NCBI GenBank assembly: GCA_040752595.1
Contig: JBFMGX010000011.1
Coordinates: forward strand, 1-63,773
Origin: Candidatus Zixiibacteriota bacterium
GTDB taxonomy: Bacteria > Zixibacteria > MSB-5A5 > WJJR01
Direction: 5' to 3'
Length of the DNA: 63,773 nt
This document shows, in pieces, positions 45,868 to 50,851 of the stretch. A program made the position numbers and the translations under genes. Numbering within the stretch: position 1 is the stretch's first letter; the number at the start of each line of letters is the position of its first letter. The notes below the pieces were generated by a model that was not told the origin of the DNA, did no database searches, and saw nothing but the letters and a program-made list of their open reading frames with translations.

Positions 45868-47495
45868 ACAAGATCCCAAAGAAGGCATCCACGACGTTCG
45901 AGACATCAGAAGCGGACTTTCTGGTCATCGGATCCGGAATCGCGGGCTTGTGGGCCGCCCTCCGTCTGGTCGAACATGGCAGCGTCGTCGTTGTGACGAA
46001 GAAAGACGAGGCGGAGTCGAATACGAACTACGCCCAGGGAGGGATCGCCGCGGCGGTCTCCCAATGGGATACGGTCGAGGCGCATGTCCGTGACACCATG
46101 TCGGTGGGGGCAGGACTGGCACGCGGTCCAATCGTCCGCGCCGTGGTCCGTGCCGGCCCCACGCTGGTTGCGGCGTTGGCCGAAGCCGGTGTTCGCTTCA
46201 CCTATCGGCAGAGACCGTATCGGCTTCGCAATCTCGATCTGGGTCTGGAGGGCGGCCATTCCATGCCGCGCGTCGTGCACGCCGCTGACCTGACCGGTCA
46301 GGAGATCGAGTCGGCCCTCGTCCACGCTCTTTCTGTTCATCCCCGCGCCCTTCTGTTGACACACCACCTCGCCATCGACCTGTTGCATCACGGGACCGGC
46401 GTGGCCACGCGTTGTACCGGCGCTTTCGTCTTCGATCGCTACCGTCGTGTGATCAAGTGCATCCATGCGCCGGTGACGATCCTGGCCACCGGCGGTGCCG
46501 GTCAGGTCTATCGCCACACGACCAATCCCGACATTGCCACCGGCGACGGCGTGGCGATGGCATACCGCGCCGGCTGCCGTGTCGCGAACATGGAGTTTGT
46601 ACAATTCCATCCGACCCGGTTGTTCGCTCCGGGGGCGGGACGGTTCTTGATCTCCGAGGCGTTGCGCGGGGCAGGAGGCATCCTCCGCAACAGCCGCGGA
46701 GAAGCATTCATGGCGAAGGTCCATCCCCTCGGTGATTTGGCACCCAGGGACGTCGTGGCCAGGGCCATTGTGGCCGAATGCCGTCGCACGAAATCGCGCT
46801 CCGCGTTCCTCGACATGACGCACCTGAAACCGGGGTTCCTGCGTCGGCGCTTTCCCAACATCGATCAGCGTTGCCGCCAACTGGGGATCGACATGACGCG
46901 CCAACCGATCCCGGTCATCCCGGCGGCGCACTACATGTGCGGTGGCGTGATCACCGACCGTTCCGCTCGGACCGATATGCCGGGGCTGTGGGCTGCCGGC
47001 GAAGTGGCCTGCACCGGATTGCACGGTGCCAACCGGCTGGCCTCGAATTCCCTTCTGGAAGCGATGTTCTTCGCCGAAGCCGCGGCCCAATCCGCCGCTC
47101 GCTCACGCGCGCACCTCAAACGCCGGCTGACGGCACCAGCCGAAGATGGGCCGCTGCCTTGTGTCGGTCCGATCTCGCGCGATCGCAGGGAATGGGCCTC
47201 GCTCCGTGACACGATGTGGAATGATGTCGGCATCATCCGTGACCGCGCCGGATTGACGCGGGCCACGAAGGTGCTCCGGGGGCTGTGTCGCGAAGCCGAG
47301 GCGAAATTCCGCCGGCGCGGCGTCAATGCCGACACGATCGAGTATCGCAATGCCACGTTGGTGGGATTGCTGATCGCCCAATCCGCCCTGGCGCGTCGCG
47401 AGTCCCGTGGCCTCCACGAGCGCACCGATTGGCCGCGCAGCGACGACGTGCACTGGAAGCACGATACGATCATGGCGCCCGGAGGGCGGCGATGA
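45864..47495 (+). CDS. nadB: L-aspartate oxidase NadB
   Basis: FAD enzyme oxidising aspartate to iminoaspartate, first step of de novo NAD synthesis. 543 residues with the dinucleotide motif VIGSGIAGLWAALR, NTNYAQGGIAAAV, GGHSMPRVVHAAD, TGGAGQVYRHTTNP, EFVQFHPT, PAAHYMCGGV and GANRLASNSLLEAM. The C-terminal helical domain is complete. The stop overlaps the guaA start (ATGA). nadA and nadC are not in the window. Confidence 0.95.
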   Translation: MNKIPKKASTTFETSEADFLVIGSGIAGLWAALRLVEHGSVVVVTKKDEAESNTNYAQGGIAAAVSQWDTVEAHVRDTMSVGAGLARGPIVRAVVRAGPTLVAALAEAGVRFTYRQRPYRLRNLDLGLEGGHSMPRVVHAADLTGQEIESALVHALSVHPRALLLTHHLAIDLLHHGTGVATRCTGAFVFDRYRRVIKCIHAPVTILATGGAGQVYRHTTNPDIATGDGVAMAYRAGCRVANMEFVQFHPTRLFAPGAGRFLISEALRGAGGILRNSRGEAFMAKVHPLGDLAPRDVVARAIVAECRRTKSRSAFLDMTHLKPGFLRRRFPNIDQRCRQLGIDMTRQPIPVIPAAHYMCGGVITDRSARTDMPGLWAAGEVACTGLHGANRLASNSLLEAMFFAEAAAQSAARSRAHLKRRLTAPAEDGPLPCVGPISRDRREWASLRDTMWNDVGIIRDRAGLTRATKVLRGLCREAEAKFRRRGVNADTIEYRNATLVGLLIAQSALARRESRGLHERTDWPRSDDVHWKHDTIMAPGGRR

Positions 47496-49081
47496 CCGAT
47501 CATGTTCTGGACACCGCGGCCGGAGACGTCTCCCGGCCCGATGTACACAAGGGGGAGGCGGTTTGGATCCTCGACTTCGGCTCGCAGTACACCCAGTTGA
47601 TCGCGCGGCGGGTCCGTGAACTCGGCGTCTTCTCCCGTGTCGTCCCCCACACGGTCCGCTACGAAGAGATCGATTGGGATGAGGCCAGGGCGCTCATCTT
47701 CTCCGGCGGCCCGGCGTCGGCGACGGCGCCCGATGCGCCGGGCTGCGATGAGCGACTCCTCCGTTCCCCGGTGCCGAAATTGGGGATCTGCTATGGTCTG
47801 CAGCTCTACGGCAGGAGCCGCGGTGGTATGCTGGCGCGCTCCCACACGCGCGAGTACGGGCGGGCGCGATTCACTCCCGATCATCACGACCCGCTCTGGG
47901 AGGGGCTGCCCGCATCGTTCGATGTCTGGATGAGCCACGGCGACACGTTGACCTCGATCCCGGAGGGAATGCGCATCATCGGGGAGACCGCCTCCGTTCC
48001 GGTTGCGGCTGCGACCGATACCGCTGCCAAGTTCTGGGGACTGCAATTCCATCCTGAGGTCGAGCACACGGAGCATGGACGCGACATCCTGCGGACCTTT
48101 CTGTATCGCCTGTGCGGTTGTCGCGGCGGCTGGGACGCCGGCGTCTTTGTCGATGAAGCGATTACCGCTGTCCGACGGCAGGTGGGTGAGGGACATGTCA
48201 TTCTCGGTGTCTCCGGCGGGGTCGATTCCGCCGTCCTTGCGGTGCTGATGCAGCGCGCCATCGGCGATCGCGCCTATCCCGTGCTGATCGACTCTGGTCT
48301 GCTCCGCGGCAATGAGACCCGCGAAGTCACCGAAGCGCTGGCCGCGGCGGGAGTCCATGTGCGCGTCGTCGATGCCGCCGATCATTTCCTCCGCGAGTTG
48401 GACGGTGTCACCGATCCCGAGGCCAAACGCAAGATCATCGGCCGCGTCTTCATCGAGGAGTTTGAGCGGGAGGCACATCAACTCGGCGCCGTCGAGTTCC
48501 TGGCCCAAGGGACGCTCTATCCCGACTGGATCGAAAGCGTCTCCGTGCGGGGACCCTCGGCGGTCATCAAGTCCCACCACAACGTCGGCGGACTGCCGGA
48601 GAAGATGCATCTGCGCCTGGTCGAACCGCTCAAGTGGCTCTTCAAAGATGAAGTCCGCGCCGCCGGACGACGTCTCGGCCTGCCCGAGGGTGTTCTCGGA
48701 CGTCACCCATTCCCAGGACCAGGGTTGGCCGTGCGGATCATCGGTCCGATCCGGCGTCCCGATCTGGATCTCTTGCGCAAAGCCGACCGCATCTTCATCG
48801 ACGAGCTGCGCCGTGCCGACTGGTACGACCGCATCTGGCAGGCCTTCTGTGTGCTTCTTCCGGTGCAGACCGTCGGCGTGATGGGAGACGAACGCACCTA
48901 CGAACGCGTCATCGGCCTGCGCGCCGTAATCTCGACCGATGGTATGACCGCCGATTGGGCCGAAATTCCACCGTCGCTCTTGAAGATCATCTCCAACCGC
49001 ATCATCAATGAAGTCCCCGGCGTCAACCGCGTCGTCTACGACATCTCCTCCAAGCCCCCGGCGACGATCGAATGGGAGTGA
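47492..49081 (+). CDS. guaA: GMP synthase (glutamine-hydrolysing) GuaA
   Basis: Converts XMP to GMP. 529 residues: N-terminal glutamine amidotransferase (LDFGSQYTQLIARRVRE, GICYGLQL with the nucleophile Cys, FHPEVEHTEHG), PP-loop ATP-pyrophosphatase domain (VSGGVDSAVLA) and C-terminal dimerisation domain (HPFPGPGLAVRI, DISSKPPATIEWE). The ATG follows GGAGGG and overlaps nadB. The last 41 bases recur 1.72 kb downstream at 50761-50801. guaA 3' ends are known chromosomal insertion sites for genomic islands. Confidence 0.96.
   Translation: MTDHVLDTAAGDVSRPDVHKGEAVWILDFGSQYTQLIARRVRELGVFSRVVPHTVRYEEIDWDEARALIFSGGPASATAPDAPGCDERLLRSPVPKLGICYGLQLYGRSRGGMLARSHTREYGRARFTPDHHDPLWEGLPASFDVWMSHGDTLTSIPEGMRIIGETASVPVAAATDTAAKFWGLQFHPEVEHTEHGRDILRTFLYRLCGCRGGWDAGVFVDEAITAVRRQVGEGHVILGVSGGVDSAVLAVLMQRAIGDRAYPVLIDSGLLRGNETREVTEALAAAGVHVRVVDAADHFLRELDGVTDPEAKRKIIGRVFIEEFEREAHQLGAVEFLAQGTLYPDWIESVSVRGPSAVIKSHHNVGGLPEKMHLRLVEPLKWLFKDEVRAAGRRLGLPEGVLGRHPFPGPGLAVRIIGPIRRPDLDLLRKADRIFIDELRRADWYDRIWQAFCVLLPVQTVGVMGDERTYERVIGLRAVISTDGMTADWAEIPPSLLKIISNRIINEVPGVNRVVYDISSKPPATIEWE
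49041..49081. repeat. guaA 3'-end direct repeat, left copy (attL-like)
   Basis: The last 41 bases of guaA including the first base(s) of its stop. They match 50761-50801 at 36 of 41 positions in the same orientation, with a 19-base perfect core cctccaagcccccggcgac (49047-49065). The interval between copies is 1,720 bases and holds the two nuclease-family genes. Confidence 0.85.
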
Positions 49082-49162
49082 GACGAGCGCACCAGATAAC
49101 TGGAGCTTGCGACGTGCAGCCGAATCATTTTTCTTGCTGGGAGGGAAGGAAGTGATTGACGA

Positions 49163-49798
49163 ATGATGGTATGGCGAGACTACATCCCCGTGGACGTCGC
49201 TGACCTGTATGAGGTTCACGACTACCATCATGCGGCGGCGATTCTGTCCAACGAGTTCCCGTCCGAATTCAGGGATGTTTGCACTGTACTGCGCAAGTTC
49301 AGGATCACGAGAGAGAACCTGCTTGGGTCTACTGGCTACGAAGGCGCTCGCAGGAAGTTCTCCGATGTACTCGGCCCCCTTGGATGGGGAGAAGCCAGCT
49401 TCGATGTCAACCTGGCGGTAGACGGGGCAATCGTAGGACGGAGTCGGCTCACGGTGCAGCACCTCAAAGGGCGCGTTGCGTTCTGCAGCCTTTGGAGTGC
49501 AGAGCATATGGCTCCCGAGCGAGACCTGTGCGCTTTCAACAGACTTTTCGCATACGATCAGATCAGCGTTGGTGTTCTCGTCGTTGCAAGTTGTGAGATC
49601 GCACCGTGCTTTGAGTCCCTGATAGCACTTGCTGAGCAGTACGATCCCGCTTGCGGCGCGACCACAGCCCCGAGGCTTGGCCCAGACGGGATTCTGGGGT
49701 GTTCTTTGGGGCTCCGCTCGGAGTCAAGGAGCGGTTGCCCTGTCTTAGTCGTGTGGACTACACCGAAGTTGCTCCTCCACCAGACAGCATTGTCGTGA
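49163..49798 (+). CDS. BglII/BstYI-family restriction endonuclease-like protein with altered active site
   Basis: 211 residues. The pattern VHDYHHAAAILSNEFPSEFRDVCTVLRKFRIT, LGPLGWGEASFD, ERDLCAFNRLFAYDQISVGVLVVAS and GCPVLVVWTTPKLL (given in pieces) matches the BglII/BstYI type II endonuclease family, whose members cut GATC-centred sites. In the family as I recall it the active site is D..K..VALEVEW; here the same stretch reads Q99-H-L-K102-G-R-V-A-F-C108-S-L110-W, so the usual acidic residues are missing. It may bind DNA without cutting. AGGAAG precedes the ATG. No methyltransferase is adjacent. Confidence 0.65.
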   Translation: MMVWRDYIPVDVADLYEVHDYHHAAAILSNEFPSEFRDVCTVLRKFRITRENLLGSTGYEGARRKFSDVLGPLGWGEASFDVNLAVDGAIVGRSRLTVQHLKGRVAFCSLWSAEHMAPERDLCAFNRLFAYDQISVGVLVVASCEIAPCFESLIALAEQYDPACGATTAPRLGPDGILGCSLGLRSESRSGCPVLVVWTTPKLLLHQTALS

Positions 49799-49846
49799 GC
49801 AGCACTGATCGTCTCTGCTCCCACCGTCAAAGGAGACTCTTCGCTA

Positions 49847-50620
49847 ATGGATCTGACGATGAACCCTCACGTGGCCACAGGCTACAAGAGCGGTTCGCAG
49901 ATCGCAAGGCGCATGACCGAAGACTGGTGCTTGAGGAATGTCTACTGCGCGGCCTGTGACACCGACCGGCTGGACGCTACCCTCCCGAACACGCGCGCAT
50001 ACGATTTCTCTTGCGGCAGTTGTGGAGCCCGGTATCAGCTGAAGGCAGGCATTCGATGGAATGAGCGCCGTGTTCCCGACGCGGCCTACGATACGATGGT
50101 TCAAGCGATCCAGCACGATACGACCCCGAACCTTCTTCTGCTTCAATACACTGCAGCCTGGACCGTCAGGAACCTCATGTTGGTGCCACGCTTCTTCCTG
50201 AATCTGTCGTGCATAGAGAAGAGAAAGCCCCTCGGCGCCAGCGCGCGTCGGGCTGGGTGGGTTGGGTGCAATATCTGTCTGACCTCGATTGCCCCGGAGG
50301 GGAAACTCCCTGTCGTCGACAGAGGCAGAGTCCTGGATGCCGCCCAGGTCCGGGATATGTATGGTCTGGTGCGTCCCCTGTCTACCCTTACGCCAAAGCG
50401 TAGAGGGTGGACGGTGGATGTTCTACGGTGCGTTCACTCCTTGGGCGGCCCGTCATTCGAACTTGCCGACGTGTATGCTTTTGAGTCCCAGATGGCCGCA
50501 CTCTATCCTGGTAATCGGAACGTGCGTGCGAAGATGAGGCAACAATTGCAGGAGTTGCGTGACATGGGGCTGATCTCTTTCTTGGGGGGCGGACGGTACA
50601 GATTCGCTCACTCCCGCTGA
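49847..50620 (+). CDS. DpnI-family (methyl-directed) restriction endonuclease-like protein
   Basis: 257 residues, colinear with DpnI, which cuts GATC only when the adenine is methylated. Shared features: QIARRMTEDW, four zinc cysteines (34, 37, 56, 59), the PD-(D/E)xK region, IEKRKPLGASARRAGWVGCNI (pieces) and a C-terminal winged helix that reads methylated DNA (RGWTVDVLRCV...MRQQLQELRDMGLISFLG, pieces). Asp53 and Lys66 match the DpnI catalytic positions, but DpnI Glu64 is Gln64 here (QLK); some Mrr-like nucleases do use QxK. AAAGGAGA lies upstream. Such an enzyme needs no partner methylase. Confidence 0.88.
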   Translation: MDLTMNPHVATGYKSGSQIARRMTEDWCLRNVYCAACDTDRLDATLPNTRAYDFSCGSCGARYQLKAGIRWNERRVPDAAYDTMVQAIQHDTTPNLLLLQYTAAWTVRNLMLVPRFFLNLSCIEKRKPLGASARRAGWVGCNICLTSIAPEGKLPVVDRGRVLDAAQVRDMYGLVRPLSTLTPKRRGWTVDVLRCVHSLGGPSFELADVYAFESQMAALYPGNRNVRAKMRQQLQELRDMGLISFLGGGRYRFAHSR

Positions 50621-50760
50621 CAGGGCGCAGATTCAACGCTAGCGACAATTGGTTCGAGGACCTCGTTCCTCCGAGGGACATGGTCCCCTGAGCTCTCGTA
50701 TCGACGACAGGCGATATCGGGCACCTTGGAATGAAGGGAGATGTCGACCGGGAGTCCGCC

Positions 50761-50801
50761 ACATACCCTCCAAGCCCCCGGCGACAATCGAGTGGGAATG
50801 A
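50761..50801. repeat. guaA 3'-end direct repeat, right copy (attR-like)
   Basis: Same orientation as the guaA terminus, 36 of 41 bases identical. Three of the five differences (g/a, a/g, g/a) are at third codon positions when read in the guaA frame, and the copy still encodes SKPPATIEWE-stop after one changed residue region. It is therefore a true relic of a guaA 3' end, not chance. Confidence 0.85.
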
Positions 50802-50851
50802 GCCGCCGAGCGAGATTGTGACAACCTCGGCCGCCGGTGATGAATTTCGGC

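Follow-up and report, generated by a model that had tools for sequence, protein, structure and literature searches.

A 1.72-kb insert made of two + strand genes lies between guaA and the atp operon in the window, i.e., the whole 63,773-nt stretch that was analysed, corresponding to contig C11 in a draft genome of 2.94 Mb. Judging from its sequence, the first gene (ORF1) encodes a dead nuclease of the BglII/BstYI family, and the second one (ORF2) encodes a DpnI homologue. The insert is probably (probability of about 0.6) a switched GATC restriction locus, in which DpnI would have supplanted the methyltransferase of an RGATCY pair, leaving an orphan nuclease that would have been disarmed. As proposed by the initial annotation of this DNA, both genes point to GATC.

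The insert and its integration site

The edges of the insert are a 52-nt direct repeat whose copies correspond to the 3' end of guaA (83% identity, spacing 1720). The coordinates and frames first given for the two genes proved exact, and the features of the locus are the following:

47285..49081, + strand: guaA (GMP synthase), insertion target, host gene outside the insert (coordinates of a mechanical ORF; the real start is probably further in)
49034..49085: left repeat copy, guaA 3' end including the stop codon
49163..49798, + strand: ORF1, full-length BglII/BstYI-family (PF09195) nuclease homologue lacking the catalytic residues, 211 aa
49457..49492, + strand: ORF1 codons 99-110, lost active-site strand, VQHLKGRVAFCSLW; relatives, IDYVKGRVAFDLEW
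49847..50620, + strand: ORF2, homologue of DpnI-family methyl-directed endonucleases (PF06044 and winged helix PF17726), D53-Q64-K66, 257 aa
50036..50038, + strand: ORF2 codon 64, Gln (cag); Glu in DpnI
50754..50805: right repeat copy, guaA 3' end, immediately ahead of the atp operon

The same-genus relative G127 carries an empty site (locus L032), where guaA is followed by the atp genes with neither the insert nor a second copy of the repeat. In G130, which belongs to the same family, part of the guaA end recurs 73 bp beyond guaA as a second copy (L034, around 1786-1944). The duplication of the guaA 3' end in both the window and G130 indicates a recurrent insertion site.

ORF1 has lost the active site of the BglII/BstYI family

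ORF1 matches PF09195 (Endonuc-BglII) with an E value of 4.2e-12. Its AlphaFold2 model (pLDDT 82, pTM 0.81; alignment including 19 relatives from viral contigs) was compared with known structures by Foldseek, and the sole PDB matches at E <= 0.001 are BstYI (2p0j, 1sdo and 1vrr); the structure-based comparison thus bears out the BstYI-like nature attributed to this protein by the initial annotation. In the family-profile alignment, D119/E128/Q130 of BstYI correspond to Q99/C108/L110 of ORF1, three columns where close-family proteins have D, E or D, and E, respectively. The catalytic D-E-Q/E triad of BglII and BstYI is therefore absent from ORF1, as had been read from the sequence at first; the three positions then given are right, but the D...ExE motif expected there is not exact, the third residue of BstYI being Gln and not Glu. 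An alignment placing the acids elsewhere in ORF1 was looked for with the profile and the relatives: no alternative acid aligns, which rules out their relocation within the motif. A frameshift is likewise ruled out, the frame running unbroken to the C-terminus after a start like that of L061. L061, the closest relative of ORF1 (38–41% identical), retains D/D/E, and its active-site stretch reads THKIDYLKGRVALDLEWNSKDQTYDRDLYAF where ORF1 has RLTVQHLKGRVAFCSLWSAEHMAPERDLCAF. The acids are kept in the relatives that have a complete motif region and in nearly all full-length family members from the class of G132. Within this class, the motif of L169 is divergent yet acid-bearing, and that of L167 was not scored, a low-complexity segment having been retrieved in its place. 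Viral contigs encode 28 nuclease relatives of ORF1, and only winged-helix matches were found there for DpnI.

The loss is uneven along the protein. ORF1 retains 24 of the 43 conserved columns, when single intact relatives retain 40–43 of 43–47. Its identity to relatives, expressed relative to L061, is 1.04 for residues 15-55, 0.47 for residues 94-130 and 0.48 for residues 161-211, and the conserved columns kept are 10/12 before residue 94 versus 14/31 after it (Fisher p 0.039). The frame is open across 211 codons and the GC pattern by codon position resembles that of coding genes. When neutral decay of intact relatives was simulated to an equal loss of conserved residues, indels being left out and all loss being taken as later than inactivation, the frame stayed open in 0.3–2.4% of runs, or in 2–7% if drift was limited to the part after residue 93. 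As so few runs stay open, some selection may still act on ORF1, be it on a function of the protein or on the open frame itself. Taken together, the open frame and the well-conserved residues 15-55 fit a retained function better than a freely decaying pseudogene. ORF1 would thus be dead, with a frame that residual selection maintains or that has not been disrupted so far.

These data also bear on another reading, namely that ORF1 is a maintained pseudo-nuclease that binds RGATCY/GATC without cleaving it or that dimerises, and whose role would be to shield host sites, to repress the pair or to modulate ORF2. The intact frame despite the loss of so many conserved residues, the preserved N-terminal half, the confident BstYI-like model and the coding-like GC pattern would all agree with it, as would the arrangement of ORF1 and ORF2, which are neighbours on one strand and are each preceded by a Shine-Dalgarno-like stretch. 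However, the conserved DNA-contact residues of ORF1 were lost together with the catalytic ones, residues 167-181 of the model have a pLDDT < 50, the kept N-terminus could simply mean recent inactivation, and no second full-length dead nuclease (R) gene was found beside a DpnI gene among about 530 genomes of two groups. On balance, this pseudo-nuclease reading appears unlikely.

A probable missing partner of ORF1

Among the relatives of the ORF1 subfamily whose neighbourhood was read, those from plasmids and phages (L041-L043, L052-L057) adjoin MT-A70 or Dam-type methyltransferases, those from the phylum of the window (L047, L048) likewise lie beside an adenine methyltransferase, and L061 is followed after 16 nt by an MT-A70-like gene. 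ORF2 occupies the position held by the methyltransferase in these relatives. One of them, L052 in the alignment (29% identical to ORF1), is R.Nph3I (NRS3_08), which cuts RGATCY; its partner M.Nph3I (NRS3_07; MT-A70 by Pfam, E 5e-32) makes RG6mATCY, a product that is cut by DpnI (PMC10734518). Since the product of such an RGATCY methyltransferase is a DpnI substrate, this methyltransferase and an active DpnI cannot coexist in a cell.

The insert encodes no methyltransferase, and tblastn detected no trace of MT-A70 in the window, which confirms that no methyltransferase is next to the two genes, as first noted, and led to the rejection of a methyltransferase remnant inside the insert. As no trace of it remains in the window, the former methyltransferase is deduced from the relatives.

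Neither a Dam-type nor an MT-A70 match was found in the host genome, the MT-A70 search having detected its positive controls G093 and G007; five PF01555 matches are present, which may or may not be directed at GATC. No avoidance of GATC is seen in the window, which contains 627 such sites versus 516 expected. With GATC so frequent in a host devoid of Dam or MT-A70 match, cutting of unmethylated GATC by ORF2 would be lethal, and a methyl-directed activity of ORF2 (or none) is therefore expected. Elsewhere in this genome, on contig C32, a predicted DNA methyltransferase (TSPPFALRRKKSYGN) is located directly downstream of a winged-helix-like ORF (L160:1426-3128).

ORF2 is a DpnI homologue with Gln64

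ORF2 matches PF06044 (E 9e-52) and PF17726 (E 5e-24), the PD-(D/E)XK nuclease domain and the C-terminal winged helix being full length, and aligns with the DpnI structure 4esj across residues 1-252 (E 1e-54). This full-length match agrees with the initial annotation in that Glu64 of DpnI is replaced by Gln64 and that Asp53 and Lys66 are kept. In DpnI, Gm6ATC is read by S17, Q18, N48, D78, R126, L129, R135, W138 and G140, and by K229 and R231 of the winged helix, and Glu64 is a metal ligand (PMC4117772). All the tested Gm6ATC-readout residues of DpnI, including K229/R231, are present in ORF2.

Among 52 full-length DpnI homologues from two genome groups, position 64 is Gln in 30 and Glu in 22, and D53 and K66 are invariant. 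About three Gln/Glu changes at this position are found on an IQ-TREE tree. The small clade of ORF2 includes L153 (Gln64) and L106 and L152 (Glu64), none of which adjoins a methyltransferase. Gln64 is thus no lesion, being found in 30/52 homologues, and its interpretation as a decay mutation was rejected, as it is carried by a whole clade. The view that both proteins are altered alike does not hold, Gln64 being the commoner state and interchanging with Glu within the small clade of ORF2: as far as can be judged from sequences, the loss of the acids of ORF1 and the Gln64 of ORF2 differ in kind. ORF2 has most likely remained functional as a methyl-directed (type IIM) nuclease.

Methyltransferase genes or gene pieces adjoin, on the same strand, 18/30 Gln64 homologues versus 0/22 Glu64 homologues (Fisher 3e-6), a count that leaves out short Dam-type and other stubs, which are below the search threshold, and that is uncorrected for kinship. 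These Gln64 homologues (L118-L120, L123, L125-L129, L131-L133, L137, L139-L141 and L145, which are DpnI loci from the class of G132, and L044) mostly form a single clade, and nearly all of them keep the Gm6ATC-readout residues. Most of the adjacent enzymes are beta-class adenine methyltransferases (PF01555) encoded directly upstream, with CcrM as the nearest solved structure; they are mostly full length, apart from a few that are truncated at a contig end or exist as fragments. This beta-class enzyme may resemble DpnA. As an active DpnI together with a GATC-methylating beta-class enzyme would destroy the host, either the specificity of the latter differs or Gln64 alters the behaviour of the DpnI homologue.

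It could therefore be argued that ORF2 is inactive or of altered specificity through Gln64, the insert being a dead island or encoding a non-cutting Gm6ATC reader. The replacement of a metal ligand and the restriction of adjacent methyltransferases to Gln64 homologues, which suggests that Gln64 changes behaviour, would speak for it. Nevertheless, D53 and K66 are invariant, the frame of ORF2 is intact, Gln64 has been kept across a large clade with about three interchanges with Glu, no methyltransferase is adjacent in the clade of ORF2 itself, and activity is known for PD-QXK nucleases, Mrr among them. An inactive or altered ORF2 is rather improbable. A more elaborate proposal is that the Gln64 homologues constitute a distinct subfamily with a complete Gm6ATC-binding site, many members being coupled to adenine methyltransferases, which would either be nucleases under regulation or serve to read the methylation of GATC; in the window, ORF2 would partner ORF1 as a selected dead DNA-binding BstYI-type scaffold, forming a two-protein GATC sensor without methyltransferase. 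We regard this sensor as quite unlikely.

BglII-family genes and methyltransferase stubs next to DpnI genes

Four genomes, namely those of the window, G262, G845 and G740, carry BglII-family genes close to DpnI genes. In the three that lack a methyltransferase there (the window, G262 and G845), the R gene has no working core. In G262, the DpnI start is overlapped by the end of an 81-aa stub that corresponds to the N-terminal part of a BglII-family protein; G845 encodes a 157-aa BglII-family piece that stops before the catalytic core, on the opposite strand and about 335 nt from DpnI. G740 carries an intact BglII-family R gene of another subclade with its own methyltransferase. The initial annotation had proposed that one of the two proteins licenses or guides the other; this finds no support in R proteins reduced to N-terminal fragments (G262 and G845), nor in G740, where R is intact and has its own methyltransferase. 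The dead nuclease beside DpnI is more simply explained by mutual incompatibility, the product of the RGATCY pair being a DpnI substrate (PMC10734518).

The DpnI genes of G262 (L101/L105) and G845 (L146) are sisters, each with a truncated BglII-family nuclease gene at <0.4 kb, strands and sides being different; these two genomes may reflect one shared event. In G740 (C126, L138/L139), an intact BglII-family nuclease, a PF01555 methyltransferase with a TSPPYN motif and a Gln64 DpnI homologue are encoded in a one-strand tandem.

Within 2 kb of 51 DpnI genes, 4 BglII-family genes were seen versus about 0.006–0.009 expected, i.e., a probability of about 1e-10 for four neighbours and 1e-7 for three, as calculated from 60/531 genomes with such an R gene, assuming random placement and ignoring defence-island clustering. 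Co-occurrence is thus only partly as the initial annotation envisaged: the two families are neighbours in four genomes, above chance, but the same pair of a full-length dead ORF1 and DpnI was not found again. No co-inherited pair of this kind was detected in 132 + 396 + 399 genomes (partly overlapping), 50,697 phage records and 72,556 plasmid records, and none of the nearest DpnI relatives of ORF2 (L106, L152 and L153) has a full-length dead R gene.

Remnants of methyltransferase genes also occur at this position. Dam N-terminal stubs precede DpnI in G060, G439 and G141 (Pfam D12 positions 1-56, 1-68 and 1-36 of 253, respectively) and a 50-aa methyltransferase-like stub directly precedes it in G827. 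The stubs break off at or just ahead of the DpnI start codon. The five stub loci comprise three of Dam type, one of another methyltransferase-like type and one of BglII type:

L022, 470-817: stub before DpnI
L094, 1187-1486: stub before DpnI
L095, 2043-2213, - strand: stub before DpnI
L158, 3904-4053: stub before DpnI
L105, 7066-7308, - strand: stub before DpnI

Small ORFs are found right after DpnI at L094 (2271-2570) and at L022 (MKTFEIQITEKL.. and MKKYKVEITETL.., respectively). They may resemble DpnD, the L094 ORF having no NCBIfam match.

The recurrence of these neighbourhoods bears on whether ORF1 and ORF2 are chance neighbours, i.e., two unrelated remnants brought together in one guaA 3'-end insertion hotspot or in a defence island. 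The recurrent use of the guaA 3' end, with its second copy in G130, and the lack of conservation of the pair in the nearest relatives are in keeping with this. It is, however, difficult to reconcile with four BglII-family/DpnI associations where about 0.01 would be expected under random placement, and with stubs of GATC-type genes that directly abut DpnI starts in several genomes, so that fortuitous proximity is very unlikely.

A model for a putatively switched locus

The order of events, the activity of ORF2 and the recognition sequence of the ancestral nuclease are those that we infer in the following model. The ancestor would most likely have been an RGATCY-type pair, i.e., a gene encoding a BglII/BstYI-family nuclease followed by that of an MT-A70 adenine methyltransferase making RG(m6A)TCY. 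A DpnI-type gene encoding a cutter of fully methylated GATC would then have come into the place of the methyltransferase gene. Once the methyltransferase was gone, the RGATCY sites of the host would be unprotected and the nuclease therefore had to be disarmed; ORF1 would thus have lost its catalytic residues and a part of its DNA-contact residues. ORF2 would now destroy incoming Gm6ATC-methylated phage or plasmid DNA and would do no harm in a host that lacks Dam and MT-A70. The lack of any methyltransferase trace in the window, the open frame of ORF1 with its conserved N-terminal region, the R piece of G845 located on the opposite strand and the possibility of a single event behind G262 and G845 count against this replacement.

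Relationship to known systems

Rather than being categorically new, the locus is probably a variation on the dam-replacing theme in which the nuclease is dead but its frame intact. The drg gene of Neisseria (NmeBII) encodes a DpnI homologue and has replaced dam, the drg and dam genotypes excluding each other (PMC516771). The locus in the window would resemble drg in that its DpnI homologue may stand where a gene for GATC methylation used to be, but the gene replaced there is dam, whereas the one missing here would be of MT-A70 type and would have been paired with a BglII/BstYI nuclease; moreover, the window keeps the orphan nuclease as a full-length dead protein. In Streptococcus pneumoniae, methyl-directed and methyl-sensitive GATC systems alternate at one locus as DpnI/DpnII cassettes (PMC3573125); in the window, there is no clean cassette swap, as a dead nuclease from another family (BglII/BstYI) is still present next to the DpnI-type gene. 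A further precedent is the remark that, in some cases, the methyltransferase gene immediately next to one of DpnI type was frame-shifted (PMC11037411).

The R.Nph3I/M.Nph3I pair of the Nitratiruptor phage NrS-3 shares with the window a PF09195 nuclease of the ORF1 subfamily, and its MT-A70 partner makes a DpnI substrate, but its nuclease is active with an intact D/E/E and the methyltransferase is present (PMC10734518). BstYI and BglII have the fold of ORF1, which differs from them by the lack of both catalytic residues and a methyltransferase partner. R.DpnI (4esj, 4kyw) and FcyTI resemble ORF2 in their full-length fold, winged helix, tested readout residues and lack of methyltransferase partner; ORF2, known here from its sequence, differs from them at position 64, where Gln replaces the metal-binding Glu.

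The locus raises the question of why methyltransferases adjoin Gln64 homologues and never Glu64 ones, though both keep the Gm6ATC-binding residues. Taken as a whole, it would mean that 'dam-replacing' is not confined to Dam genes but also concerns RGATCY systems with a BglII/BstYI-family nuclease, and it suggests a general rule, according to which a methyl-directed DpnI and a GATC-methylating system exclude each other, the leftovers being truncated or disarmed.
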